This document shows positions 209 to 62,733 of a stretch of DNA of 64,000 nt, piece by piece. The stretch's first letter is position 1. Every line of letters begins with the position of its first letter. A program made the position numbers and the translations under genes. The stretch spans positions 1 through 64,000 of the forward strand of contig LNDU01000030.1 in NCBI GenBank assembly GCA_001464735.1, written 5' to 3'. Under the pieces are notes generated by a model, which saw nothing but the letters and a program-made list of their open reading frames with translations, made no database searches and was not told the origin of the DNA. The DNA is from Nitrospira sp. Ga0074138 (lineage in GTDB: Bacteria; Nitrospirota; Nitrospiria; Nitrospirales; Nitrospiraceae).

Positions 209-670
209 ATGTCCAACCAGACTCTCCGTCCGCACCCTTCATTGCCGATCCCCACCACCGTTGAACTGGCCCTGATACAGCTCAGCTCCTCACAGATTCC
301 GTTGGCCGGTGTCGTCGCGGCTGGGGCACCAATTGAACCGATTCCTCAGATGGAACGCGTCGAGATGCTGAAAATCATGGTCGGCTATGGGGAGACCTTC
401 ACCCTTCGGGTCAAAGGCACGTCCATGCAGAATGAAGGCATCTTTCCGGGTGACATTGTCGTGGGGCAGAAGCAATCGACCGCCAGAAATGGGCGGACCG
501 TCATTGCTTTGGTGAATGGCGAGGCCACAATCAAGACGTATCACCGCAAGGCGGGCAGAGTGGAGCTCCATCCTGCCAATGGCGCCATGCAGCCAATTAT
601 CATCAAGCCGTAGGACAGCTTTCAGATCGAAGACATTGTTGTCGGCGTCATCCGTCACTTGAGAATGTGA
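209..670 (+). pseudogene. LexA/UmuD-like S24 peptidase domain with in-frame TAG near the C-terminus
   Basis: ORF 209-613 has the VAAG cleavage-type motif, GTSMQNEGIFPGD (Ser) and NGEATIKTY (Lys). After TAG 611-613 the same frame continues DSFQIEDIVVGVIRHLRM to TGA 670, matching the usual LexA C-terminus. No N-terminal HTH. Confidence 0.7.
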
Positions 671-1729: not shown

Positions 1730-1873
1730 CTATCTCGCCCCTTTGGCGAGCCGGGTGCGCTCACTCCACCGGTCTGGTTGCAGGACCGTGCTAATGGCCA
1801 CAAAGACGATGATGATCAAATAGAACACCAATGACACTGTGAAAAGATACCCTGCGCGGAGTTTGGTGAGCAT
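1730..1873 (-). CDS. Small membrane protein (47 aa), paralogue of 53325-53501
   Basis: Manual translation: MLTKLRAGYLFTVSLVFYLIIIVFVAISTVLQPDRWSERTRLAKGAR*. One predicted TM, GAGGAG upstream of ATG, and strong similarity to a second small ORF in the window. Confidence 0.75.
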   Translation of the reverse strand: MLTKLRAGYLFTVSLVFYLIIIVFVAISTVLQPDRWSERTRLAKGAR

Positions 1874-1999
1874 GATATTCCATCTCCTCATCTTCGCAGC
1901 CCCTCAAAATGTTACCGACATGAAATACATGCCTAATACCGGCGCAACAGCACAATGGCAGTATGAATCCAACACAACAATACTAAGGAGGATCAGATT

Positions 2000-2383
2000 A
2001 TGGTCACAGTCGGCAACTTAATGCAGAAGGAACCAGTGACGGTGGATGCAGGCACGTCGGTCGTCGAGGCGGCGAAGTTGATGAAGGCCTGCAACGTCGA
2101 AAGTGTGCTCGTCGCCCGCCAAGCAAAGATCATCGGCATCCTGACGGAATCGGATGTCGTCAAGAAGTTCGTGGGCGCAGAGAAAGCCCCGTACTTCGTG
2201 CCGGTAGAGGACATCATGAGCAGCCCAGTGCCCGGGATCGAAGAGCGGCGGCCGTTGACCGAAGCGGCCGACCTCATGGACAAGCATCGCACGCTTCATC
2301 TCGGCGTCACCAAAGGGGGAGCGCTCATCGGCATGGTCTCGGTTCGAGACTTTCTCCGACCCGTCTCCATCGACGAGTTTTAA
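2000..2383 (+). CDS. CBS domain protein (two CBS motifs)
   Basis: VGNLMQKEPVTVDAGTSVVEAAKLMKACNVESVLV...GILTESDVV...VEDIMSSPV; AAGGAGGA before ATG. Confidence 0.9.
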   Translation: MVTVGNLMQKEPVTVDAGTSVVEAAKLMKACNVESVLVARQAKIIGILTESDVVKKFVGAEKAPYFVPVEDIMSSPVPGIEERRPLTEAADLMDKHRTLHLGVTKGGALIGMVSVRDFLRPVSIDEF

Positions 2384-2785: not shown

Positions 2786-3988
2786 TTGGGCGACGATCGG
2801 CAGGAGATAGAAGTGCCCGACGACAAGCCCGATCCACCGGCCTCATTACGTGACCTGCTGATTGTTCACCTGGGCCATCGGCCTCTGGTGCCGATCATGA
2901 CCTTGCGCGTCTGGAGAACCGGTGTCCTCGTGCGCGATCGTCGTCGGCCTGTTGCTGAGGTGGTGCTCGACAACGTGACCGTGGTGAAAGACGGCCGCGT
3001 GATCCAGCGCTTTCGCGAACTTGAAATCGAACAGCGCCAGGGCAACGAGGCCTCGCGTCGTGCCCTTGAACGGCAGATGCGCGAGGCCGGGGCATCCGAT
3101 CATGACGGGCGGCCCAAATTGTTTCGTGCCCTGTCTCTGCCGGCCCCTATCCCAGACGAGCAGCCTGACCCAAAAGCGCCGATAGTCGACCATCTCAAGT
3201 GGGCACTCGCGCAGCACGTCGGATGGCTCCTGGCCCATGATCCTGGCACGAGACTCGGCACCGAGCCTGAGAGCCTGCATCAACTGCGCGTCGCGACCAG
3301 GCGCCTGCGCGCGGTACTCCGCACAGCCCGGCCGATCCTCCTTCCCACATGGGTCACGACACTGGAACAAGAGCTCACGTGGCTGAGCGAGCTGCTGGGA
3401 CCGGCCCGCGACCTCGACGTCCAGATCGCCCATTTCACAGAAGAATCTGCCGCATTGGATGCGCGAGATCGCAAGCTACTGACCCAATTCATCTCCCATC
3501 TACGCACGCAACGAGAGGCCGTGCAGCAGATGGTGGTCAGCGAGCTCACAGGCGTTCGCTACGTGGAACTGATCCGGCGGCTTCAACAAGCGGCGCAAGC
3601 CCCCTCAATCGTGGAGTCTCCCCTCACTGTCCGTCAACTCGCCAAGCGAGAGTTCATGAAACTGCGCAAGGCGATCAGCCGACTCGCCCCTTCCCCATCG
3701 GATACCGCACTACACACAATTCGCATCAAGACCAAACGGGCTCGCTATGCGGCAGAACTTGCTCGCAGTTCAGTAGGGAAACCAGCCAGCCGGTTTATCA
3801 AGTCCGCGCGTGCGGCCCAGGATCTCCTGGGCCTCCATCAGGATGCGATCCAAGCCGAACGTCACGTCCGACAGTTCCTCAAATACTCGACGAGTGTCCG
3901 CGCCGGATTCGTCGGCCGCAACGTTCACAAGGAGATCAAACCGCTGTTCAAGTCGTTGCTGAAACGAGGGAAGAAGGCCTGGCGATGA
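2786..3988 (+). CDS. CHAD domain-containing protein (N-terminally disrupted CYTH-CHAD)
   Basis: ESLHQLRVATRRLRAVLRTARPIL...ELLGPARDLDVQIAHF and LHTIRIKTKRARYAAEL are CHAD signatures. Confidence 0.85.
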   Translation: MGDDRQEIEVPDDKPDPPASLRDLLIVHLGHRPLVPIMTLRVWRTGVLVRDRRRPVAEVVLDNVTVVKDGRVIQRFRELEIEQRQGNEASRRALERQMREAGASDHDGRPKLFRALSLPAPIPDEQPDPKAPIVDHLKWALAQHVGWLLAHDPGTRLGTEPESLHQLRVATRRLRAVLRTARPILLPTWVTTLEQELTWLSELLGPARDLDVQIAHFTEESAALDARDRKLLTQFISHLRTQREAVQQMVVSELTGVRYVELIRRLQQAAQAPSIVESPLTVRQLAKREFMKLRKAISRLAPSPSDTALHTIRIKTKRARYAAELARSSVGKPASRFIKSARAAQDLLGLHQDAIQAERHVRQFLKYSTSVRAGFVGRNVHKEIKPLFKSLLKRGKKAWR

Positions 3989-15832: not shown

Positions 15833-15891
15833 TCCACAGGTATGACGGTCAGACAGTCTACCGTCCGCTGATCCCTCGTGGGCCACGTCAA

Positions 15892-15919
15892 TCTCAAGTT
15901 TGTGTTAACTGATTGTTAA
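15892..15919 (-). promoter_or_regulatory. Pho-box-like 11-bp direct repeats upstream of exosortase gene
   Basis: Minus strand TTAACA-atcag-TTAACA-caaac-TTGAGA. Confidence 0.65.
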
Positions 15920-15936
15920 AAAGCGAACAGGGTCGT

Positions 15937-19079: not shown

Positions 19080-19107
19080 CGTCAAATTTGTGTTAGGCGA
19101 ATGTTAA
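19080..19107 (-). promoter_or_regulatory. Pho-box-like repeats upstream of GT2 gene
   Basis: Minus strand TTAACA-ttcgc-CTAACA-caaat-TTGACG. Confidence 0.6.
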
Positions 19108-19267
19108 ATTGATATGCGGAGGGAGAGGCGTGGGAACTCGGTTCAACTCAATCGATGTCGCTTCTCGGGCATTAGTGAACCTATTCGAACGGATAAATTG
19201 CTGAGATCCAGAGCATGGGCATTATTTCAAGCAGCACGTACGGGCTACGATCGGGCACGAACGCTTC

Positions 19268-34152: not shown

Positions 34153-36168
34153 TCAGCTGCCGATCCTCCCGCCGTCATCTTTCGTCACGACGATCAGAGC
34201 CGACCGCGGGCGCCCGCCGCTCGGACCATCCGGCCACGAGCTGAACTGCTTCGGGTTGTTTGGATCGCCAGGCAAGTCGTCCGGCCGCTCACCCGGATGC
34301 TGGATGCCGACGAACATGGTTCGACGGTCCGGAGTCATGAACACACCGGTGATTTCGCACTGATTCGGCCCTACGAGGAATCGTCTGGTCTCCCTCGTCT
34401 CCGGATGGGCGGCCAGCATCATGTTGTTGCCGAACCCGGCATAGTTGCCGCTGTTGATGGTATTGGTCGAGATATCGGTCTGGATCCAGAGCAAGCCGCT
34501 GGGATCGACATAGATGCCGTCCGGCGAGCCGTACTTGTCGCCGAAGATCGTGGAGCCGTGCGCCGGATTCGCCGGATCGCCGCAGAGGGCGAAAATATCC
34601 CAGCCGAAAGTCGGCTCCGTCCAATCCTGGCGATAGAACCAGCGGATGATGTGACCGTAGTTGTTGACGGCTCGCGGATTTGCTGCGTCCACCGGGGGAC
34701 GGGCCGAGCCGGCTGCGGTAGACCCGTCTGGATTGTTGACCGACGGAGGGTTCGAGCCGCGCCGATTGTTGTTCGTCAACGTCGCAATGGCCGTCAGATC
34801 CTTGGGGAACGTGTCGATCCATTCAGGACGATCCATCATGGTCGCACCAGCGGCATCGGCGGCGCCACGTGTATTGATGAGAATGTCGTTGAGCGACCAG
34901 CCCGCCAAGCGCGGGTTGTCCGGAACGAGCGGCAGCCATTCTCCCGTTCCGTCCGCATGAAACTTCGCAACGTAGAGGATCCCGTCGTCAAGTGGGTTGA
35001 TCCCCTGCGCGCGCGCTTGTCTCCAGGGCAGATTGGATACATAGCGATAGATGTACTCGTTCCGCTCATCGTCACCCATATAGACCACGACACGACCGTT
35101 CCGCGCCTCTTGCACCCAGGCCCCTTCGTGCTTGAGCCGGCCTAACGCCGTGCGTTTTACCGGGGTCGAATGCGGCTTGAACGGATCAATCTCCACCACC
35201 CAGCCGAATCGATTGGGCTCATTGGGTTCTTCATCGACACGGAATCGCTTGTCGGTTGTGTGCCAGAGATAGCCAAACCCCGCCGCGGTAATACCGTAGC
35301 GCTTTTCCATCGTCGTCTGTGGGCCGTTCTTTCGGAAATAGCCGTTGAAGTTCTCTTCGCAGGCCAAGTACGTGCCCCAGGGGGTATAGCCCATGGCACA
35401 GTTGTTGAGCGTCCCCAATACGCGTGTCCCTGTCGGATCCTCGCTGGTCACGAACCGGGGGTCGCCGGCTGCCGGCCCGCCGATCTCGATCGGCGTCATG
35501 CCGGTGATGCGACGGGCAAAGGGAGAGGGCCGCACGACATCCCACTTACCGCGCCGGCGCCGCCAGTCCCAAGGAAATCCCATCCGCTTAGTGACTTCGA
35601 TGATCGAGACCCCGTGGGCATTGAGCGACTTGTTCGTCTTCTCTTGAGTCCAGTTATTCACGCCGTCCGGGAACAGCAGCCCGTCATCGGTATATTCGTT
35701 GTTCTGCACGATGAGGCCGCGCTGTGACCCCACGACAGGAAAGTACACGAGCCCGTCGTTGTGCATGCCCCACTGACGCGCCTGCTCATCTGCGGTGTTG
35801 CTTGCGTCCTGTTTGAAAGCCGGGCCGTTCGAAACAGGCTCGCCCCAGGCGATCAGCACTTCAGCCGTATAGCCTTTCGGCACGACAACGTCGTCGGCAG
35901 ACGAAACCGGCACACTTTCGAATCCCAGCGTCGGCCGTCGACGTCCCAGACTTTTCTCGTCTTGATCCGTATCTTCGGCTTCTTCAATTCCACCTGCCGC
36001 TGCAGGTACGGCTTTTAGCAGCGCCTCGACTCCACCCAGCGAGACCGCTGCGGCCGTCGCGAGACCGCCTGTCAAAAAGTTGCGTCGCGATAGGCGCGTG
36101 TCCACAATGTCCTGAAACTGTTCGTTCCCAGAGGTGTTGCTCACACCCTCGTCATCGATGATCGACAT
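34153..36168 (-). CDS. phoX: PhoX family alkaline phosphatase (Tat-exported)
   Basis: Tat motif SRRNFLTGG; VPKGYTAEVLIAWGEPV...GWVVEIDPFKPHSTPVKRTALGRLKHEGA...YVYMGDDERNEYIYRYVS (PhoX family). Confidence 0.92.
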   Translation of the reverse strand: MSIIDDEGVSNTSGNEQFQDIVDTRLSRRNFLTGGLATAAAVSLGGVEALLKAVPAAAGGIEEAEDTDQDEKSLGRRRPTLGFESVPVSSADDVVVPKGYTAEVLIAWGEPVSNGPAFKQDASNTADEQARQWGMHNDGLVYFPVVGSQRGLIVQNNEYTDDGLLFPDGVNNWTQEKTNKSLNAHGVSIIEVTKRMGFPWDWRRRRGKWDVVRPSPFARRITGMTPIEIGGPAAGDPRFVTSEDPTGTRVLGTLNNCAMGYTPWGTYLACEENFNGYFRKNGPQTTMEKRYGITAAGFGYLWHTTDKRFRVDEEPNEPNRFGWVVEIDPFKPHSTPVKRTALGRLKHEGAWVQEARNGRVVVYMGDDERNEYIYRYVSNLPWRQARAQGINPLDDGILYVAKFHADGTGEWLPLVPDNPRLAGWSLNDILINTRGAADAAGATMMDRPEWIDTFPKDLTAIATLTNNNRRGSNPPSVNNPDGSTAAGSARPPVDAANPRAVNNYGHIIRWFYRQDWTEPTFGWDIFALCGDPANPAHGSTIFGDKYGSPDGIYVDPSGLLWIQTDISTNTINSGNYAGFGNNMMLAAHPETRETRRFLVGPNQCEITGVFMTPDRRTMFVGIQHPGERPDDLPGDPNNPKQFSSWPDGPSGGRPRSALIVVTKDDGGRIGS

Positions 36169-37604: not shown

Positions 37605-37802
37605 TTTCCCTTTCGCCGGGCAATTGGCCGCTCTTGTTCTTCGAACGATTGTTTGATTGATGTGGTTCCGAAGCGGCCACTCAGGCACACAAACTGGACC
37701 AGATCAACGGCTGTATCGGGGGCTTGTTGTAGCAAAGCGGAACTGGACTTCGCAATATCTTTCAGGACACTATTCTCGCATTACTGCACGAAGCCGAAAC
37801 TT

Positions 37803-37841
37803 TTTACTGTACGGTTACACGTGCGTAACGGATCTGTAATG
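37803..37841 (+). promoter_or_regulatory. Pho-box-like repeats between PvlArgDC and the DHS-like gene
   Basis: TTTACT-gtacg-GTTACA-cgtgc-GTAACG-gatct-GTAATG. Confidence 0.5.
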
Positions 37842-40534: not shown

Positions 40535-40565
40535 ACGCCCTGCCTGGCGCCTTTCTGGAATACAA

Positions 40566-40582
40566 TTTACATCAATTTAACG
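40566..40582 (+). promoter_or_regulatory. Possible Pho-box-like repeats upstream of NarL-type regulator
   Basis: TTTACA-tcaat-TTAACG. Confidence 0.35.
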
Positions 40583-40697
40583 ATCCGCTGATCGAGCCGG
40601 TAGGTTATTTACGTACAATCACTACATAAATGGTTCCCATTATGTCACCTCAGACTACCGTTGACCGCGGACGACTGCTCGACCGGAGATCAGCGGA

Positions 40698-43995: not shown

Positions 43996-44191
43996 GGTTC
44001 CATTCTTCCCTATACTCTTTGTACTTATCGTCCATCTAACGGCTTATTGCAACCTGGAAACACCCTTGAATCCTACTAGTGAAACCCAAGGGGCACTGGT
44101 AGGATCTGGGCCTTGAAGGGCCCTGCGTGGTCACATCAGAGAATAAGATACTTACCTAATCCATAGGCTATCTGCCTTATTCATCCTCAAC

Positions 44192-44230
44192 GTTACTCCA
44201 TCTTAACGCTAACGTAATCTCGACCTAATC
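44192..44230 (+). promoter_or_regulatory. Pho-box-like repeats upstream of choice-of-anchor I gene
   Basis: GTTACT-ccatc-TTAACG-ctaac-GTAATC-tcgac-CTAATC. Confidence 0.5.
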
Positions 44231-48210: not shown

Positions 48211-50124
48211 ATGCAGCTCGACCGTATCATCCTAAAGCCCCTCGTTTTCTTCGCCGTCATGGGCACACTATGCATGAGCGCCGCCTGCACGATGTCGCCC
48301 GCCTTCGCCGAGGGTTTGGCCGAGCATCATTCCTACGAGTGGGACCGAGACGACGAGGCCGACGATACGATTGAGATGCGCCGGGACGCCGGCCGAACGC
48401 TGGAATGGCGCAGCCCCGAATTCCATCGAGAAGAGAAAGACTCCCTCCTCCACATACAGTTGCTCGGTATCAATGACTTTCATGGACAGCTCTCGGCGGG
48501 GCGACGTGTGGCGAACCGTCCGGTTGGAGGGGCGGCGGTGTTGTCCGCCTATCTCCACGCCGCACAGCAAAACCCGAACGACCCGGACCTCGCAGAGCGA
48601 ACCTTCATCGTCCATGCAGGCGACCATGTCGGAGCCACACCTCCTGAATCAGCGCTGCTGCAGGATGAACCGTCGATTGGCTTTTTGAATCTCTTGACTA
48701 ATCGATACTGTCGTTACGAGGATCGCCGAGAAGACGGTGATCGACGCGGAGGCTGGGACGATGATGAGGCAAAGGAGGACCGCCGCGATCGCCGCATGCA
48801 CCCCAAATGTAATCTTGTCGGCACTCCGGGCAATCATGAGTTCGACGAAGGCAAAAACGAGCTCTTTCGCCTGCTCAACGGCGGCAATCATGCCACTGGC
48901 CCTTTTCTTGAGAGTCCGTATCGTGGCGCGCGGTACCCGACCGTCTCCTCCAACGTCGTCGATGAGAAGACCGGTAAGCCCATTCTGCCTCCCTATGTCA
49001 TCAAGCAAGTCAAGGGCGTCCGCATCGCGTTCATCGGTGCGGTCTTGAAGGAGACTCCGACCATCGTCACACCGACCGGAGTCGCGGGATTAAAATTCCT
49101 GGACGAAGCCGACAGCATCAATCGCTACGTGCGCTGGTTGCGTCAGACGGAAGGCATTCGCACATTTATCGTCCTGATTCACCAGGGCGGCCGCCAGACG
49201 ACCTATGAAGGTCCGACTCAACCGGGCGCGCTTATTACCGGCCAGGAGATCGTCAACATCGTCTCTCGTCTGGATAACGATGTCGATGTCGTCGTCTCAG
49301 GCCATGCCCATGCCTTCACCAATGCGTTACTCAAGAATCAGAATGGCGCCGACATCTTGGTCACACAAGCCTTCTCGTCAAGCACGGCGTACGGCGATAT
49401 CGACCTGATGATCAACAAACATACCCGAGACGTCGTCGCCAAGAGCGCGGCGATCGTTACCACCTTTGCCGATGCCGGACCAGGCCTCACGCCGGATCCT
49501 CAGGTCGCGGAACTGGTGGCTCAGGCCCAAGCCAAAGTAGCACCGCTCGTCAACCGGGTGATCGGCGAAGCCGCGACAGACCTGTTGCGTACGGAAAGCC
49601 CGGCCGGCGAGTCATCGCTCGGCAACCTGATCGCCGACGCGCAACGAGCGGCACAGGGCACCGATTTCGCCTTCATGAATCCCGGCGGCATCCGCGCAGA
49701 CCTCTCGGCCGGTCCGGTGACCTATGGGGAACTCTTTGCCATTCAACCGTTCGGCAACAGCTTAGTACGTATGGAGCTCACCGGTCAGCAAGTCTACGAC
49801 CTGCTCAATCAACAATGGACCAATCAGCCGTTCCCACGCATTCTCAAAACGTCCGGATTGACCTACACCTGGGACAACAACCGACCGATCGGCGACCGCA
49901 TCGTTCAAGTCCTCCGCAACGGGTCGCCGATCGACCGGCAAGCGACTTTTTCCGCGACCGTCAACAATTTTATGGCGGCCGGCGGGGATAATTTCACCGT
50001 CTTGCTGCAAGGGAGAAACCAAGTAGGTGGGCCGCTGGATCTGGATGCTCTGATTGCGTACATCCAGAGTCTGACGCAACCCTTTTCCGCCGCGATTGAG
50101 GGACGGATCGTCAAGTTCAAGTAA
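48211..50124 (+). CDS. Bifunctional metallophosphatase/5'-nucleotidase
   Basis: LLGINDFHGQLSAGRRV, GNHEFDEGKN, VVVSGHAHAFTNALL, FMNPGGIRADLSAGPVTYGELFAIQPFGNSLV. Confidence 0.93.
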   Translation: MQLDRIILKPLVFFAVMGTLCMSAACTMSPAFAEGLAEHHSYEWDRDDEADDTIEMRRDAGRTLEWRSPEFHREEKDSLLHIQLLGINDFHGQLSAGRRVANRPVGGAAVLSAYLHAAQQNPNDPDLAERTFIVHAGDHVGATPPESALLQDEPSIGFLNLLTNRYCRYEDRREDGDRRGGWDDDEAKEDRRDRRMHPKCNLVGTPGNHEFDEGKNELFRLLNGGNHATGPFLESPYRGARYPTVSSNVVDEKTGKPILPPYVIKQVKGVRIAFIGAVLKETPTIVTPTGVAGLKFLDEADSINRYVRWLRQTEGIRTFIVLIHQGGRQTTYEGPTQPGALITGQEIVNIVSRLDNDVDVVVSGHAHAFTNALLKNQNGADILVTQAFSSSTAYGDIDLMINKHTRDVVAKSAAIVTTFADAGPGLTPDPQVAELVAQAQAKVAPLVNRVIGEAATDLLRTESPAGESSLGNLIADAQRAAQGTDFAFMNPGGIRADLSAGPVTYGELFAIQPFGNSLVRMELTGQQVYDLLNQQWTNQPFPRILKTSGLTYTWDNNRPIGDRIVQVLRNGSPIDRQATFSATVNNFMAAGGDNFTVLLQGRNQVGGPLDLDALIAYIQSLTQPFSAAIEGRIVKFK

Positions 50125-52694: not shown

Positions 52695-52991
52695 TCACAA
52701 TTCCGGAGCACTCATCCTTCGGGCTGGCTCAACTTCTATTGCCGTCGCCTCCGCCTTGGCTTCGATAATGTCGCCTACCTTGGCATCGACGTAGACCTTC
52801 ACGCGCTCGGCGACTCGTACCAATTTCACGCGCCACACCACCCTGCCGTCCACGTTTCTCAACTTTATATCGTAGATCGTTCCGCCAATTGCCGACACAG
52901 CGGCAATCGCCTCCTCAATCGACACCGATGCGTTGTTCACGAGCTCATTGGCCTTCTCCGCCTTGAGAACCCGATCATGCCTGCGTTTCAT
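52695..52991 (-). CDS. PepSY domain protein
   Basis: SIEEAIAAVSAIGGTIYDIKLRNVDGRVVWRVKLV...KVYVDAKVGDIIEAKAE. Confidence 0.85.
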   Translation of the reverse strand: MKRRHDRVLKAEKANELVNNASVSIEEAIAAVSAIGGTIYDIKLRNVDGRVVWRVKLVRVAERVKVYVDAKVGDIIEAKAEATAIEVEPARRMSAPEL

Positions 52992-53324
52992 CAGATACCT
53001 CCTCTTCACTGAGGCTGTATAGCCCCCCTTAACCCGATAGAGTGTAGTATTGGATGATCGCAAAAGGCTACGACAAATTTATGGCCGGGTGGGTAACGGC
53101 TAATGAGAGGGCATATCCTCACCAGGCCGTCGTACGACCTGGGATGCCGATACGTCCAGGTCCTGTGCGGTAACCACCGAGACGAGGACCAAGTCCTGAA
53201 GAACACGAATAAACCATGCCCAAAACATGCCGTGGGCTTCTATGATTGAGGTCGCCAGAGAAGGGGGATGGCCGGCACCAAATTGTGGAGCCCACGCGAC
53301 GTGATACCCCGCCATGCGGGAGCA

Positions 53325-53501
53325 TCATGCAGCAGGCGACAAACCAGTGTTCCCGCTCGATCGCGTCCCACCGTGTAGCCTAGTACGCTCACTCCATCGG
53401 TTCGGTCTCATGACCATACTGATGGCGAAGAAGGTGATAATCATCATAAAAAACGCCAGTGACACAAAGAGAAGAACACCTGCGCGGAGCTCGGCAATCA
53501 T
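53325..53501 (-). CDS. Small membrane protein (58 aa), paralogue of 1730-1873
   Basis: MIAELRAGVLLFVSLAFFMMIITFFAISMVMRPNRWSERTRLHGGTRSSGNTGLSPAA*; AAAGGAGG upstream. Confidence 0.75.
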   Translation of the reverse strand: MIAELRAGVLLFVSLAFFMMIITFFAISMVMRPNRWSERTRLHGGTRSSGNTGLSPAA

Positions 53502-53712
53502 GATGGTCCGCCTCCTTTCGTCTGAAAACCATTTCTCATTTTAGGGACAAGCTACGACACGTCTATCACCGACTTGTTGCCGATTCATTAACGGCGAGTA
53601 ACACTTGGTGTACGGAGTCATCTTCGGTGTTCCAGGCTTGTCTTGAGTCTCCAGACCGGCCTGTAGGCCCCTATTCCTGTCGTACGTGAAGAAATAAAGA
53701 GAACGAGGGGAT

Positions 53713-54420
53713 CTAGACGCGGAGCTTGTAGCCGACACCGCGAACCGTGACGATACGACCCGGTTCGGCAGGGCTGATTTCGATCTTCTGACGAAGCGAA
53801 TGGATATGAACGTCCAAGGCATGTTCTTCTAGCGCGTAGCCTTCCCCCCACACTCGGTTGAGCATTTCTTGCCGAGAGAAGACTCGGCCTGGAGCTTCGA
53901 TAAACTGAAGGAGGATCTTAAACTCCTTCGGAGTCAACTCGACGGTGTGCTTACCGACTGTGACTTCATGCCGATCAAGATCCATTCGAATATTCCCGGC
54001 ATGGTAGTGCCGAGGAGCTTGCTCCGCCGATGGAGCGGACCGTCGCAAGATCGCACGCACACGGGCAACGAGTTCACGCGGGGTTTGATTCGAGACGACA
54101 AGATCAATCTCTTCATCATACCCGTCCAGACTGTCGTCGTCCGCGCCGGACTTCTTTCCGGTGGACAGGGCCACTATCGGTATCGTTGTGGCCATTCGCA
54201 GCTGCCGCAGACTCACAGCGCTATCTGGCTGACGCTCAATGATGAGAAGGGAAGGCACGGCCTTTTTCATAGCGGTAAGGACCGCGTCCTCCGTCTTCAC
54301 GTGCATGGTCTGATAGCCATTTGTGGTGAAGGCCCTCTCGAGCGAGAGCGCCAGATGGTCGGATTTTATGAAGAGGAGGATCGCCCCTTGTCTGCCTGTC
54401 ATCGAGGGTAAGGTCAACAT
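53713..54420 (-). CDS. OmpR-family winged-helix regulator with degenerate receiver
   Basis: Receiver phospho-acceptor position reads LLIIERQPD; winged helix LTPKEFKILLQFIEAPGRVFSRQEMLNRVWGEGYALEEHALDVHIHSLRQKI. Confidence 0.88.
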   Translation of the reverse strand: MLTLPSMTGRQGAILLFIKSDHLALSLERAFTTNGYQTMHVKTEDAVLTAMKKAVPSLLIIERQPDSAVSLRQLRMATTIPIVALSTGKKSGADDDSLDGYDEEIDLVVSNQTPRELVARVRAILRRSAPSAEQAPRHYHAGNIRMDLDRHEVTVGKHTVELTPKEFKILLQFIEAPGRVFSRQEMLNRVWGEGYALEEHALDVHIHSLRQKIEISPAEPGRIVTVRGVGYKLRV

Positions 54421-54530
54421 GATTCGGGTAGGGATAGTAAAGCAGTATCGGGAAGAAGGTCGTTAGGGTCCTGTAAATTGTACGTAAACTCACTCGGCTC
54501 GTTGGCCGAAAGAACTTGGCTCGCAGATGG

Positions 54531-54558
54531 TTAACATGGAATTAACATGACCTTAATC
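54531..54558 (+). promoter_or_regulatory. Pho-box-like repeats upstream of PstS-like gene
   Basis: TTAACA-tggaa-TTAACA-tgacc-TTAATC, 48 nt before the start. Confidence 0.75.
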
Positions 54559-54605: not shown

Positions 54606-55673
54606 ATGATCCGTTCAGCAAGAGGAGCGTTGACAGTGCGATCGGTATCTGTAATTCTCGGCTGTGTGATCGCCACTGCGGGACTGTTTTTATCGCCTTC
54701 CACGACATGGGCGCAGGTGCAACTCAAGCTTGATCCCAACATTCCCTCCTATCTCCCGCAGGAACTCGCATCCGGCACACTGAGCATTTCCGTGGCCGAA
54801 ACCATCAAACCTTTGGTTCGGACATGGGTAACGGGCCTAACGCTTCGGCATCCTCAGCTAAAAGTCAGCGTGATATCGGAAGGATCAGGCAATGGGCTCG
54901 CCGCGCTTCTCGAACACCGAACGGAGGTGGCCGCAATGGCCCGTCGGCTCACTGCCGTCGAGATCGCCGAGTTCGTCAGGGAATATGGATATGAACCGTC
55001 TGAAGTTCCAGTGGCCACTGAAGCGCTGGCCGTCTACGTCCACAAGGACAATCCTATTACCGGTCTTGCACTGGACGAATTGGATGCCATGTTCTGTCGT
55101 GAGCGGCAACGCGGATTACGCTACGACGTCGACTCGTGGGGCTTGGTCGGAGTGATGGATGAGTGGTTTGAAGCACCCGTCGAATTGTACGGAAGAAGCG
55201 GCAAATCCGGTGTTGGTTATCTTTTCCGTGAAGAAGTGTGCAAAGGTGGAACCTTTATCCCGAAGATCGTCGACGAACATGGCTCCGCATCAACAGTATT
55301 GGATGTTGGAGCCAACCAGTATGGCATCGGGTTCGGGGCGATCGGGTATAGAACCTCACTGGTAAAGCCGGTGCCCATCGCGTCGGTGAAAGGCGGTCGA
55401 TATGTCGAGCCCACCGCACAGACGGCCATGGACGGCTCGTACCCCTTACGTCGAAACCTGTATCTCTACATCGCCAAGCCTCCGAAAACGCCGCCGACAC
55501 GGCCACCAGCGGAGTTGATCCGCTACGTGTTGAGCCGGCAAGGCCAACAGGCGGCGATCGACTTTGGATATTTCCCGATCGTGTCGACGGAAATTACGAG
55601 ACTGATATCCAAATGGTCTATGCCGCCCAAATTGGCTCAGGTGCAGACATCCGATCGCCACATCGTTGAGTAG
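54606..55673 (+). CDS. PstS-like phosphate-binding protein
   Basis: GTLSISVAETIKPLVRTWVTGL...SEGSGNGLAALLEHRTEVAAMARRLTAVEIAEF...EALAVYVHKDNPITGLALDELDAMFC. Confidence 0.82.
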   Translation: MIRSARGALTVRSVSVILGCVIATAGLFLSPSTTWAQVQLKLDPNIPSYLPQELASGTLSISVAETIKPLVRTWVTGLTLRHPQLKVSVISEGSGNGLAALLEHRTEVAAMARRLTAVEIAEFVREYGYEPSEVPVATEALAVYVHKDNPITGLALDELDAMFCRERQRGLRYDVDSWGLVGVMDEWFEAPVELYGRSGKSGVGYLFREEVCKGGTFIPKIVDEHGSASTVLDVGANQYGIGFGAIGYRTSLVKPVPIASVKGGRYVEPTAQTAMDGSYPLRRNLYLYIAKPPKTPPTRPPAELIRYVLSRQGQQAAIDFGYFPIVSTEITRLISKWSMPPKLAQVQTSDRHIVE

Positions 55674-55707
55674 CCCTTGCTTCGATAGGATATCGACTAA
55701 CACCCCT

Positions 55708-56418
55708 ATGAACCTATTACATCCCTATTGGCTCCGCCACGGTTGGTGTGTTCTTTGGACCTACACCTTCATCGGATGTTCACCGGCACAGTTCACGACT
55801 CTCACGATTTACGAGACTCCCCTCTCATTCGTCCGCCTCGAAGTCGATCGCACGCTCACTCAGGGAACCGGACATAGCCATCCCTCGAACATCTCGTCTG
55901 AACAAATGGCGGCGGTGCTCCGCGGGATCACCATTCAAGAACCATTGACGAGAATCCCGTTTTATGATGACCTGAGCGTGTCTCGCACCCATCCAGCGTT
56001 CAGCGATCGGGATATCTCATTCTGGGCGCCCCTATTGAGCCTGGCCTTGAGCAAGGCGACGGTGGACGAAATCGCCACCTTCTATCAGAGCACGAAAGTA
56101 TCGGGAACCTCACGTGAGGTGACATCGGGCGGGGTCTTTGTCGATAGAGATAACCTGCATGTCGTTCTCAGCAATCTGCAGTCCAGCACCCACTTTACAG
56201 CCGACATCGGAGTCGCCGACACTCAGGACGATCGACTCTCACCGATGAAGTCGATCGCCCCGCAGCGAGGAAAACTGATGTTCGTTCCGGAAACGGCACG
56301 CGTCGATGAGGCCCCGGATGCCCTGACTCGCGTCTTCCAACAAGATCGGCGGGAACTCGTCGTGCAGTACAAAACCCTTTCTTCAGGTCAAGTACGCTCA
56401 GCCACCCCCAACCCCTGA
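55708..56418 (+). CDS. Hypothetical lipoprotein
   Basis: Lipobox-like YTFIGCSP; overlaps/adjoins the PstS-like gene. Confidence 0.55.
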   Translation: MNLLHPYWLRHGWCVLWTYTFIGCSPAQFTTLTIYETPLSFVRLEVDRTLTQGTGHSHPSNISSEQMAAVLRGITIQEPLTRIPFYDDLSVSRTHPAFSDRDISFWAPLLSLALSKATVDEIATFYQSTKVSGTSREVTSGGVFVDRDNLHVVLSNLQSSTHFTADIGVADTQDDRLSPMKSIAPQRGKLMFVPETARVDEAPDALTRVFQQDRRELVVQYKTLSSGQVRSATPNP

Positions 56419-56445: not shown

Positions 56446-57879
56446 CTAAAAGCTCCACTGCAGTTGGAAACGGAGCAAGTTGCCGCTATGAAGCTGATAC
56501 GGCGTCTGAAGGCAGGGTCCGAATCCAGTTGCCGCCAAAGCGCACTGGCCAGGAGGACTTCCAGCGGGCGTAAACGTGCCGTCCGAAGTATTGCGCTGCG
56601 TCCAGCTGTACGACACGGTGAATTCCAAAGCCTTATTGAGCTGATATTCGACACCAAGTTCCCATTCCCGCACGGAGTTACGCGGCGCATTCGCCTCTGA
56701 TTTGCGTCCACCGTAGTACTCCTGCACCCTGAAAAACGGATAGATGTTCTGGCAGAACGTATCGCACTGATAGCGGTAGAATACTTGAAGGTAGCCGCCG
56801 CGCACATTGTTGAGCACCACATCGGTTCGGGCTTCGTTCAACTCCGGTCCTCTTCCTATCATATACTCGGCCTGAAACCCAAAAGGCTGCGGGAACAACG
56901 TAACATGCCACGCGATCCGCTCATCGAGGTAGTTCCCATTGTTCGTCACACGCGGCGTGAACGCCTGACCGTTGGCGAGAGCGGTATCGAGTGGAACGAC
57001 CGGCGTCGTGGAGACATTGAATTGACCGCGGTACGCATCCATGCCCACTTCGACGATCTGGCCGTTCGGAAACTCGAACGGATACATGGCATGGAACACA
57101 ATGTGTTTGTCTTTGTTGCGGTCGCGGACGTTGATGCCCTGTCCGTTGAAGACCCCGATGCCCAACATGCCGTAGTCTCCCGATCCCTTGAGACCGCTGT
57201 CGGCCAATCGGCGAAAACGCTCGCGCACCGAGGTCGGGGTGTAATACAGAAACACGCCGAGATCCCGCTCGTTCGGAAATCCCGAGTTGATCGCATCGTT
57301 GCGATCCAAGGCCAGACGGTTTTGGCTCGACTGCATGTTTTCGAACCCGAACGGTACCTTGGAAAGCCCCAGGCGAACACGCCATTCCTTATTCTCCGTC
57401 ACAAAGAAGTCGGTATAGAAATCGCGCAACGAGACTACTTGCTCTGACCCTCCGACCGATCCGGCAAATTCTGGTTGGATATACACAAACACCCGCTCAT
57501 GGGGTTGCCCGCTGACGATCAGACGTGCGCGGCGGAGAAAGAGCTCGTTATTACCAGAGATCGACCGATCCGCTTGATTACTCCGGAGTAGATCGTTATC
57601 GATCGTATGGGTATAACGAAGTTGCGCATAGCCTCTGATGCTGATCTTTTCGTACCACCGTTCCCGGACCGGCACATCGCCGACTCCACGACTCTCCTGT
57701 GAGGCCTTGGCTTCGCGTTTTTCCTCTTCAGCCTTGATCTGCACCCACTGTTCGACAGTAATCTGCTTGTTTTCTAGCAATACGTCTTCCAACTTCCCCG
57801 CCCAGGACACCGCGTGTCCTGTAAACGTGAACAGGAAACCGATGATTACACCACCCCACCCGCTGATTGCGTTCTTCAT
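56446..57879 (-). CDS. Phosphate-selective porin O/P family
   Basis: Signal peptide, coiled-coil N-terminus, RRARLIVSGQPHERVFVYIQPEFAGSVGGSEQVVSLRDFYTDFFVTENKEWRVRLGLSKVPFGFENMQSSQNRLALDRNDA. Confidence 0.88.
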   Translation of the reverse strand: MKNAISGWGGVIIGFLFTFTGHAVSWAGKLEDVLLENKQITVEQWVQIKAEEEKREAKASQESRGVGDVPVRERWYEKISIRGYAQLRYTHTIDNDLLRSNQADRSISGNNELFLRRARLIVSGQPHERVFVYIQPEFAGSVGGSEQVVSLRDFYTDFFVTENKEWRVRLGLSKVPFGFENMQSSQNRLALDRNDAINSGFPNERDLGVFLYYTPTSVRERFRRLADSGLKGSGDYGMLGIGVFNGQGINVRDRNKDKHIVFHAMYPFEFPNGQIVEVGMDAYRGQFNVSTTPVVPLDTALANGQAFTPRVTNNGNYLDERIAWHVTLFPQPFGFQAEYMIGRGPELNEARTDVVLNNVRGGYLQVFYRYQCDTFCQNIYPFFRVQEYYGGRKSEANAPRNSVREWELGVEYQLNKALEFTVSYSWTQRNTSDGTFTPAGSPPGQCALAATGFGPCLQTPYQLHSGNLLRFQLQWSF

Positions 57880-57927: not shown

Positions 57928-57966
57928 CATTACAACAAGGTTACGGTAGAGTCCGGACTGAGTTAA
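57928..57966 (-). promoter_or_regulatory. Pho-box-like repeats upstream of phosphate-selective porin
   Basis: Minus strand TTAACT-cagtc-CGGACT-ctacc-GTAACC-ttgtt-GTAATG. Confidence 0.55.
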
Positions 57967-58046
57967 CTCGCTGGTCACGCGGCCTTATGGGGCAAGGGTC
58001 CGGCACTGGGGAATGGGCGACGAAGGAGTGGGAGGTTTCTGGGGAT

Positions 58047-60108: not shown

Positions 60109-61551
60109 CTACTCCTTGTCGTCATCCTCCTGGCCCTCATCGTCACCCCTATCCTGGTCATAGCCGGGCCGAATGAAGGTGCCAAGGTCGGTCGCTGCCA
60201 CCTTGTACGCATGCAACACCCCCGGGAGGAGTTTGTAACTGCCGTCGTTGGGAAGATCGAACATCTCATTGACCACGCCATCTGCGACATCGGCGGTCGT
60301 GAAACAACCGGTGGTCAAGCCAAGCGGGCACTGGATCGAGCCGGCGAAAGGATCGGCATCGCTCATGCGGAAATACACGTCGAACTGCTGACCGATCCCA
60401 TTCTGGGTCACGCTGTAGTCATTGTCCGTACCCGTCACCAGCACATAGCTGCCGTCCTTCAAACGTGGCCCGACGGCCAGCCCTTCCCATTTCTCAGGAA
60501 CCTTGTTGCCGAATTCCGGCAACGTATCGACGGCGAGGTCAAGAAGCGGAACGGCCTGTTTCGTGACCTTTCCGGTCGGGCACGCAGCAGCCGCAAACGC
60601 CGGGGCAGGAGGACTGAAATCAGTTGCGCCTGTGATGTCAATCCGGAAAAGTTTTTTGTTAGACGGTGAGAGTTCCGCGCCGACGCCGATACCTCGGTTG
60701 TTGCGTTCGAGGACGAGGAACTCATGATCGTTGATGGCGAACAGGGCGGAAATCCCGCGTCCCTGGCTGGAGCCTTCCATCTGATACGCATATTGCGCAA
60801 CGGCCGTGCCGGTCCCGGCGCTGAACTTGACGATGCGGTTGCACAGCCCGCCGGAGCCTCCCTCATCGAGCATGGCACTTTGCAGCATCGCATAGACGTA
60901 GGCGCCATCGGGGCTGATGGCCAGACCTTCAAAGCCGCGGTTGGTCCGCTTGCCGGCAGTGTTGCCGATGTCGTTGGCATAGTTCGGCATGTTCGCAGCG
61001 CTACGTGGGATCAGGTTGGCCGGGGTGACGAAGGACCGCACCCGCTTTCCCTTTTTGTCGAACTCGTAGAGGGAGGGACCATATTCATCCGATACATAGA
61101 AATGACGATTGTGAGAATTGATGACGAACCCTTCCGGGTCGAACGCATTGCCGAGAACGTTCGTCGGGCTCGGGGCCAACCCATTCATGGGATTGCCGAA
61201 CTCATCCTTGAAGATGATGGTCTCGCGGATTGTGAAACCACTGATCGCGCCGGTCTTTTTGTCGACCTTCAATCGAAAGCGCTGAACACGAGTCTGGTAG
61301 TCAAGCGAACCCCCACCGGGGCCACGATCGGAAAGTCCATACCACTGTTTCCGTTGGGCATCGTAATAAAGATCCGAGAAGTACCCGACCCGACCGGTAT
61401 TGGCGTCCGTGCCGCCGCTGCGGTCGAGCAGAGCACCCTCGAGCGCGAGGCCGTTCACAAATTCAGGTGCGGCCAGCACGATAGGGGCCATTGCAGCCAA
61501 AATCAGGCTCATCGCCATAGCCGTCATCACATGACACAGAGATCTCATCAT
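60109..61551 (-). CDS. Esterase-like activity of phytase family protein
   Basis: NGLALEGALLDRSGGTDANTGRVGYFSDLYYD...GLSDRGPGG...FDPEGFVINSHNRHFYVSDEYGPSLYEFD...NRGFEGLAISPDG; acidic tail RGDDEGQEDDDKE. Confidence 0.88.
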   Translation of the reverse strand: MMRSLCHVMTAMAMSLILAAMAPIVLAAPEFVNGLALEGALLDRSGGTDANTGRVGYFSDLYYDAQRKQWYGLSDRGPGGGSLDYQTRVQRFRLKVDKKTGAISGFTIRETIIFKDEFGNPMNGLAPSPTNVLGNAFDPEGFVINSHNRHFYVSDEYGPSLYEFDKKGKRVRSFVTPANLIPRSAANMPNYANDIGNTAGKRTNRGFEGLAISPDGAYVYAMLQSAMLDEGGSGGLCNRIVKFSAGTGTAVAQYAYQMEGSSQGRGISALFAINDHEFLVLERNNRGIGVGAELSPSNKKLFRIDITGATDFSPPAPAFAAAACPTGKVTKQAVPLLDLAVDTLPEFGNKVPEKWEGLAVGPRLKDGSYVLVTGTDNDYSVTQNGIGQQFDVYFRMSDADPFAGSIQCPLGLTTGCFTTADVADGVVNEMFDLPNDGSYKLLPGVLHAYKVAATDLGTFIRPGYDQDRGDDEGQEDDDKE

Positions 61552-61602: not shown

Positions 61603-62733
61603 TCACTGGTTCTTCAAGAAGGCATCACGGGCCACGATGCCGCGATCCGTCTGATCGGTGAAGAAGCCGTCAATTCCAGTCCTCAAGAAGACCTTGATTT
61701 CTCCTGCCCCATCACCCAACGCGTTGGGGTCGCTGGACGACTTGAAATTGCTCGGCAGAAAGACGTTCTCGGAGCGGAAGGTGTAGGGATGCACCTGGAG
61801 CCCCACTGCATGGGCATCTTGGACAAAGCGAGTGGCGCTCGAGAGGTTCAGATTCCCGGCAGAGTCGAGAGGGAGGATGAAGCGCTTCTCAGGACCCACT
61901 CCTTTGGCATACGAGGCGATCTGGGCCAATCCGGCTGGAGTCGCCATCTGCTCATAGGTGAGCGTCCCGCCACCCGCTTCCACATCATAGGGCTTGCCCT
62001 CGATCCAGAGCAGTTGAACCAGAGGGATCCGTGTCATGCCCTTCAACTTGCGCAGATTGTTGATCTCAAATGACTGGATGAAGACCTGCGCGTTACGCCC
62101 CTCGTAGCCGTTCCGGCGTAACACTTTCACCAGCGGCTCTTCAAGCGGAAGCCCTAGACGGTCGAAATAGGTCGGATGTTTGGTTTCCGGATAGAGTCCG
62201 ATGCGGCGATCGAGGAGCTTTTCATAAGCCTGGGCCAGCTCGATAATTTCCTGGAAGGTCGGAATCTCAAACTGACCGTCAAACCGGGCATTGGCTGGCC
62301 GGATACCGGGAATGCGCTCGATGGCCCGCAGTGTCTTGATTTCATTGAGAGTGAAATCCTCGCTAAACCAACCCGTGACCGTGACCCCATCGACCGTCTT
62401 GGTGGTCTTGCGTCCGGCAAACTCAGGCCTGCTCGACACATCTGTGGTGAGATCAAGCACATTGTCATGGCGGGCAACCAGATAGCCGTCTTTCGTGATG
62501 ACGAGATCCGGCTCAATAAAATCGGCCCCCTGAAGAATCGCCGTCGCATAGGAGGCCAGCGTGTGTTCAGGCACATATCCGCTCGCCCCACGATGAGCAA
62601 TCACAATGGGCTTGCCCTGGTCATCTGATGGCCGTCCCCTTCGTTCTGCGTCGTCGGCACTCACTCCTACCGCCGTCAGACAGACCAGCGCGGTCACTGC
62701 CAATAACATCTTGTTTCTTACGACACGAAGCAT
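61603..62733 (-). CDS. glpQ: Glycerophosphodiester phosphodiesterase
   Basis: PIVIAHRGASGYVPEHTLASYATAILQGADFIEPDLVITKDGYLVARHDNVLDLTTDV. Confidence 0.94.
   Translation of the reverse strand: MLRVVRNKMLLAVTALVCLTAVGVSADDAERRGRPSDDQGKPIVIAHRGASGYVPEHTLASYATAILQGADFIEPDLVITKDGYLVARHDNVLDLTTDVSSRPEFAGRKTTKTVDGVTVTGWFSEDFTLNEIKTLRAIERIPGIRPANARFDGQFEIPTFQEIIELAQAYEKLLDRRIGLYPETKHPTYFDRLGLPLEEPLVKVLRRNGYEGRNAQVFIQSFEINNLRKLKGMTRIPLVQLLWIEGKPYDVEAGGGTLTYEQMATPAGLAQIASYAKGVGPEKRFILPLDSAGNLNLSSATRFVQDAHAVGLQVHPYTFRSENVFLPSNFKSSSDPNALGDGAGEIKVFLRTGIDGFFTDQTDRGIVARDAFLKNQ

Follow-up and report, generated by a model that had tools for sequence, protein, structure and literature searches.

Bitopic membrane proteins of a few dozen residues are known to act on larger partners in bacteria. 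MgrB of the Enterobacteria, 47 aa long, belongs to a two-component regulon and acts on the sensor kinase through its helix and its tail, the latter periplasmic and carrying a functional Cys pair (PMC8404706). MgtS of E. coli, a single helix of 31 aa, belongs to the magnesium response and modulates MgtA and PitA, a phosphate transporter, while AcrZ, of about 49 aa, packs its one helix against a large inner-membrane transporter (PMC10710835). Genes of the Pho regulon are recognized by PHO boxes, in which an 11-nt unit with 7 conserved positions is directly repeated (PMC4415409). Our literature search found no work on the Pho regulon of Nitrospira or on the family of small membrane proteins described here. 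Two of its members, SM1 and SM2, lie in the window, by which we mean the whole stretch of 64,000 nucleotides that was analyzed.

1730..1873, minus strand: SM1, accessory-clade small membrane protein of 47 aa (ATG at 1873, stop codon at 1730-1732, coding from 1873 down to 1733)
1884..1888, minus strand: AGGAG ribosome-binding site of SM1, 10 nt before the ATG
53325..53501, minus strand: SM2, accessory-clade small membrane protein of 58 aa (translation, family match)
53511..53515, minus strand: GGAGG ribosome-binding site of SM2, 9 nt before the ATG

Translation of the minus strand gives MLTKLRAGYLFTVSLVFYLIIIVFVAISTVLQPDRWSERTRLAKGAR for SM1, exactly the peptide that an earlier note on this DNA had placed at 1730-1873. 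An alternative in-frame ATG at 1891 would yield 53 aa; we place the start at 1873 because the family alignment and the ribosome site favor it. The ungapped match to SM2 with 28 of 47 positions identical, also claimed in the earlier note, was reproduced by pairwise alignment (36 positives, E 2e-20), and 20,000 segment-preserving shuffles reached at most 13 identities. At the nucleotide level the two genes are 64 to 72% identical in frame versus 22 to 40% in the 100 bases 5' of the start codon.

A search of this 4.1-Mb genome with SM1 recovered SM2 at an E-value of 5e-13 and two further copies. The earlier note had spoken of two copies; both are indeed homologues, but the genome holds four. The third accessory copy (L034, G000:C43:41879-41995, contig C43) has a frameshift near its start relative to L045 and is a pseudogene or an assembly error. 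Of the 82 genomes in the genus, 72 gave a match to a single-sequence query; with a 32-sequence profile, 122 of 150 genomes of the family Nitrospiraceae matched, spread over 11 of the 22 genera sampled. Relatedness among the genomes inflates these counts, which are not independent. Among 249 genomes of the phylum outside this family there was no convincing match, the sole borderline one (E 0.006) lying inside a 358-aa frame. Scanning named genomes with core-clade sequences gave 80 loci, N. moscoviensis (NZ_CP011801.1, zinc-ribbon/core pair near 361,094) among them, all titled Nitrospira or Nitrospiraceae/Nitrospirae except for one "uncultured Nitrosospira." SM1 and SM2 had no Pfam or NCBIfam match above the curated cut-off, the single Pfam match stayed below it (E 0.16), and a profile search of the PDB found no relative. 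The homologues across genus and family bear out the earlier view of a family of small membrane proteins. Its members appear to constitute an undescribed micro-protein family restricted to the Nitrospiraceae, some of which small-protein catalogues (sORFdb-style) may list as unnamed clusters.

Are these frames translated? The selection on the frame that the earlier note had proposed is purifying: dN/dS is 0.25 for SM1-SM2 and 0.24 when pooled over 35 disjoint core-clade pairs, and values for the remaining five frames of this DNA range from 0.33 to 2.5. A GGAGG or AGGAG ribosome site precedes nearly all family copies. One could still argue that the conservation reflects a function of the DNA or RNA, with a frame that is not translated. 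However, the purifying selection is specific to the frame, the ribosome sites are near-universal and the protein alignment is ungapped across genera. We give this explanation a negligible chance and regard the SM1/SM2 family as almost certainly real coding genes.

Each of the 101 copies scored has a hydrophobic segment of the length of one membrane helix (about 20 residues), its best 19-residue hydropathy mean being about 2.5 or higher. AlphaFold2, run on the family alignment, predicted a helix over residues 2 to 30 (pLDDT 92 to 98 in the middle, block means up to 98), a break at Pro33 and, at lower confidence, a short helix at residues 38 to 45. The tail carries the motif P-x-R-W-[SCA]-[ED]-R, with P33, W36 and R39 invariant in a 32-row alignment. 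Its net charge of about +3, versus about 0 before the helix, would place it on the cytoplasmic side according to the positive-inside rule. Hence, we infer that the family comprises bitopic membrane proteins in which a single helix is followed by a Pro kink and then by a basic tail with a Trp anchor, SM1 and SM2 presumably residing in the inner membrane. Size (47 aa) and a bitopic build are shared with MgrB (PMC8404706); no sequence relation is claimed. The tail Cys pair of the MgrB type is absent from our family alignment, where the tail is basic and predicted to be cytoplasmic, and because of these missing cysteines we do not claim membership in the MgrB family.

Being short and hydrophobic, with a basic tail and several copies per genome, the peptide could also be a toxin of the Hok/Ldr/TisB kind that attacks the membrane as part of a type I toxin-antitoxin module. 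This is very improbable, as the tail motif is strictly conserved and the core copy is normally single and has been kept vertically across the family in stable gene orders. The distinction of core and accessory copies stems from a tree of 89 distinct sequences, in which 19 accessory sequences separate from 70 core sequences at 100/100; the sequences are short and resolution inside the clades is weak. SM1 and SM2 both belong to the accessory clade, where SM1 forms a long branch with SM2 and the copy at L036 as nearest relatives.

The core clade, usually with a single copy per genome in Nitrospira and several in some other genera, occupies a locus between aroE/aroK and pal/msrA. Behind the core copy, pal and msrA were found in 67 of 82 loci; 3 to 5 kb downstream we recognized a phosphate porin in 31/82 and pstS in 37/82, counts to be read with the fact that many of the metagenome-assembled contigs end inside the region examined. 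In 59 of the 82 loci a tiny open reading frame ends 18 to 36 nt before the core start. It encodes a C4 zinc ribbon, W-[TMV]-R-x-C-P-x-C...P-x3-W-x-C-x-C-G-W, without a Pfam match over the cut-off. Examples are found at loci L035, L038, L052, L140 and L155; the ribbon is kept across genera and apparently unnamed. Its profile is present in 105 of 150 family genomes, nearly all of the strong matches sit immediately upstream of the core gene, and none of the 20 accessory copies has the ribbon beside it. The earlier note, correct about the family, had missed both the two clades and this partner of the core clade.

These observations give some weight to a different reading, namely that the family is a general envelope micro-protein with an ancestral core role, together with the zinc-ribbon peptide, in envelope upkeep, and that accessory copies ended up in phosphate islands simply because envelope genes gather there. 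The core copy is the commoner form, it is coupled to the ribbon and followed by pal and msrA, and it has no PHO box: none of the 82 core-clade promoters exceeded a PHO-box score of 8, and we rejected the core copy as a Pho-regulated gene. We consider this reading unlikely, if a serious contender, on account of where the accessory copies are found.

The window is a phosphate island with genes for PhoX, a 5'-nucleotidase, PstS, Porin_O_P, a phytase-like protein and GDPD. The following features were assigned by domain match unless stated otherwise.

1874..1999, no strand: intergenic stretch of 126 bp from which SM1 and the CBS gene diverge (sequence)
2000..2383, plus strand: two-CBS-domain protein, divergent neighbour of SM1
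2786..3988, plus strand: CHAD-domain protein
34153..36168, minus strand: PhoX alkaline phosphatase
48211..50124, plus strand: 5'-nucleotidase family protein
52695..53063, minus strand: PepSY-domain protein downstream of SM2
53713..54420, minus strand: PhoB/RegX3-like winged-helix regulator, directly upstream of SM2 (domain match and sequence)
54606..55673, plus strand: PstS-like phosphate-binding protein (PBP_like_2)
55666..56418, plus strand: conserved cassette ORF without a Pfam match (conservation across loci)
56446..57879, minus strand: Porin_O_P, phosphate-selective porin
60109..61551, minus strand: phytase-like esterase domain protein
61603..62733, minus strand: glycerophosphodiester phosphodiesterase (GDPD)

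CHAD is a polyphosphate-associated domain. At the edge of the window, an S24 (LexA/UmuD-like) peptidase ORF at 209-670 (+) has a TAG near its C-terminus, and its frame continues to a plausible end.

The same setting recurs around the accessory clade, which occurs in three genera. All 20 accessory copies lie among phosphate or polyphosphate genes, L146 being the weakest case with only a CBS gene recognized. Their neighbours include CBS genes (16/20), a PhoB-like regulator (14/20), pstS (13/20), ppk (9/20), a UshA-like nucleotidase (6/20) and CHAD (4/20), and a PepSY gene stands beside six copies. With a mean of four pstS-like genes per genome, pstS would lie within 8 kb of a given copy by chance in 1.6% of cases; it does so for 13 of the 20 (P ~4e-19), and P is 1e-6 if only independent lineages are counted (4/6). 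This proximity, though conserved, does not prove contact with Pst. As judged from gene order, the accessory clade is very probably linked to phosphate. The CBS gene was rejected as an exclusive partner (it occurs in 77 of 82 genomes), as was a link to the phosphate porin by presence and absence, the porin being found in 18 of 22 genera and thus not discriminating. A link to nitrite oxidation was rejected too, NxrB-like TIGR03478 matches (below cut-off) occurring also in genera without the small protein.

For the promoters we used a 29-bp PHO-box matrix trained on 45 pstS and 29 porin promoters only, with no SM promoter. It converged on three 7-mers at an 11-bp period, AtTTAACAcnnctGTAACAntcCcGTAAc, the repeat architecture of the described Pho regulon, with the core word [TG]TAACA in the Nitrospiraceae versus CTGTCAT in E. 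coli (PMC4415409). As well as the pstS and porin promoters, those of ppk carry boxes here (7/9 above a score of 8). This threshold of 8 was set without independent calibration; six of the 20 accessory promoters exceed it, compared with a single one among 366 control promoters (P 6e-8) and none of 1,000 shuffles. Three boxes lie in the region of SM2.

53565..53593, minus strand: predicted PHO box of SM2, CGTTAATGAATCGGCAACAAGTCGGTGAT, three 7-mers at an 11-bp period, 92 to 64 nt before the ATG, score 10.6
54529..54557, plus strand: PHO box of pstS, score 19.8, training-set member
57940..57968, minus strand: PHO box of the porin, score 15.2, training-set member

Random DNA with the base composition of the window should contain, per 64 kb, 0.1 matches scoring above 8 and none scoring above 10. 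The box starts 66 to 96 nt before the ATG in five related promoters (L036, L043, L044, L054 and SM2). SM2 is probably Pho-regulated through its predicted box. For SM1 such control is possible but doubtful: its own strand holds no convincing box (best score -8.9), and the intergenic region shared with the CBS gene has a weak PHO-box-like match toward CBS at 1909-1937 (score 4.3; 2.5 such matches are expected per 64 kb). Five accessory copies sit 78 to 79 nt behind another gene, and no promoter of their own is therefore expected. Confinement of the accessory clade to phosphate and polyphosphate neighbourhoods in three genera, and a PHO box kept at similar distance by related copies, argue against accessory copies being general envelope proteins that merely happen to lie in islands.

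The matrix also matched elsewhere in the window. Matches at 15882-15921 (-, score 14.9) and 19081-19109 (-, score 15.8) lie upstream of exosortase EpsH and glycosyltransferase genes, and this exopolysaccharide cluster is possibly Pho-controlled. PHO-box-like matches at 37801-37840 (+), 40564-40592 (+) and 44190-44229 (+) precede genes for a deoxyhypusine-synthase-like protein, a LuxR-type response regulator and a choice-of-anchor-I protein.

The regulator upstream of SM2 has Glu at the position of the phospho-acceptor Asp and Asn for the conserved Lys in its receiver, which gave no Response_reg Pfam match. In lacking that Asp the candidate differs from the described Pho regulon (PMC4415409); its sequence and position suggest a role in the phosphate response, possibly as a phosphorylation-independent Pho regulator. 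Such PhoB-like regulators occur in 23 of 82 genomes and accessory SM proteins in 14, 12 of them with the regulator (12/2 versus 11/57, P 1e-6). The 11 remaining genomes with the regulator have no accessory copy. In two of these 11, G010 and G079, the order porin-PstS-regulator-CBS-PepSY is intact, and the SM slot holds only apparent decayed remnants by our reading of the translations. Loci L240 (4956-5640) and L241 (4350-5037) are phosphate cassettes with such an apparent remnant in the slot. The accessory gene is thus optional, and its apparent decay in intact cassettes suggests that it modulates the phosphate system more likely than it carries it.

This bears on the idea that the family instead supplies a minor subunit of the CydX/KdpF/AcrZ type, which would stabilize a large membrane protein in an envelope enzyme or transporter complex and have no part in regulation. 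Size, the single helix and the conserved interfacial tail would fit, and so would a core copy that is near-universal in the genus. AcrZ is alike in size and helix (PMC10710835); the SM proteins differ in having no adjoining RND pump or fixed transporter gene and in their optional place in the phosphate cassette. Since no invariant large membrane-protein gene stands beside all family copies, and since an obligate subunit would hardly be lost where the rest of the cassette is intact, we hold this idea to be quite unlikely.

Our best overall reading, to which we give a probability of about 45%, is that the SM protein is a small Pho-linked membrane modulator of phosphate uptake or signalling. SM1 and SM2 would be expressed as bitopic micro-proteins in the inner membrane, and the accessory clade of their Nitrospiraceae-restricted family would have been absorbed into phosphate-starvation cassettes of the order porin - PstS - PhoB-like regulator - CBS - SM - PepSY; the constitutive role would fall to the core paralogue. 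SM2 would most likely be switched on by the Pho response through its PHO box. The single helix (about residues 2 to 30) would insert such that the tail (net charge +3) faces the cytoplasm, where the invariant Pro would kink the chain and Trp and Arg would hold a short amphipathic helix against the membrane surface. We tentatively suggest that the helix docks on a membrane protein of the Pho system and adjusts how active or how stable that protein is, by analogy to MgtS on PitA and MgrB on PhoQ; the PstCA permease would be the first candidate, followed by a phosphate sensor kinase. Both the partner and the sign of regulation are hypothetical. MgtS is likewise a tiny single-helix protein, differing in length and with no known sequence relation, and the SM context is Pst/Pho (PMC10710835). 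The earlier note had called the function unknown and had missed the phosphate island and the PHO box of SM2; that verdict can now be narrowed. A bolder and improbable version would join the zinc ribbon and the single-helix peptide into a two-micro-protein unit, of which the Pho-inducible branch forms a membrane switch in the phosphate cassettes with the PhoB-like regulator, itself not open to phosphorylation by the ordinary route. If true, it would mean phosphate signalling without the classical phospho-relay.

In summary, our analysis adds a near-universal, apparently undescribed micro-protein family to Nitrospira-type nitrifiers. The PHO-box model makes the Pho regulon of Nitrospira predictable, and the accessory clade offers a testable link between the phosphate response of these bacteria and a tiny membrane protein.
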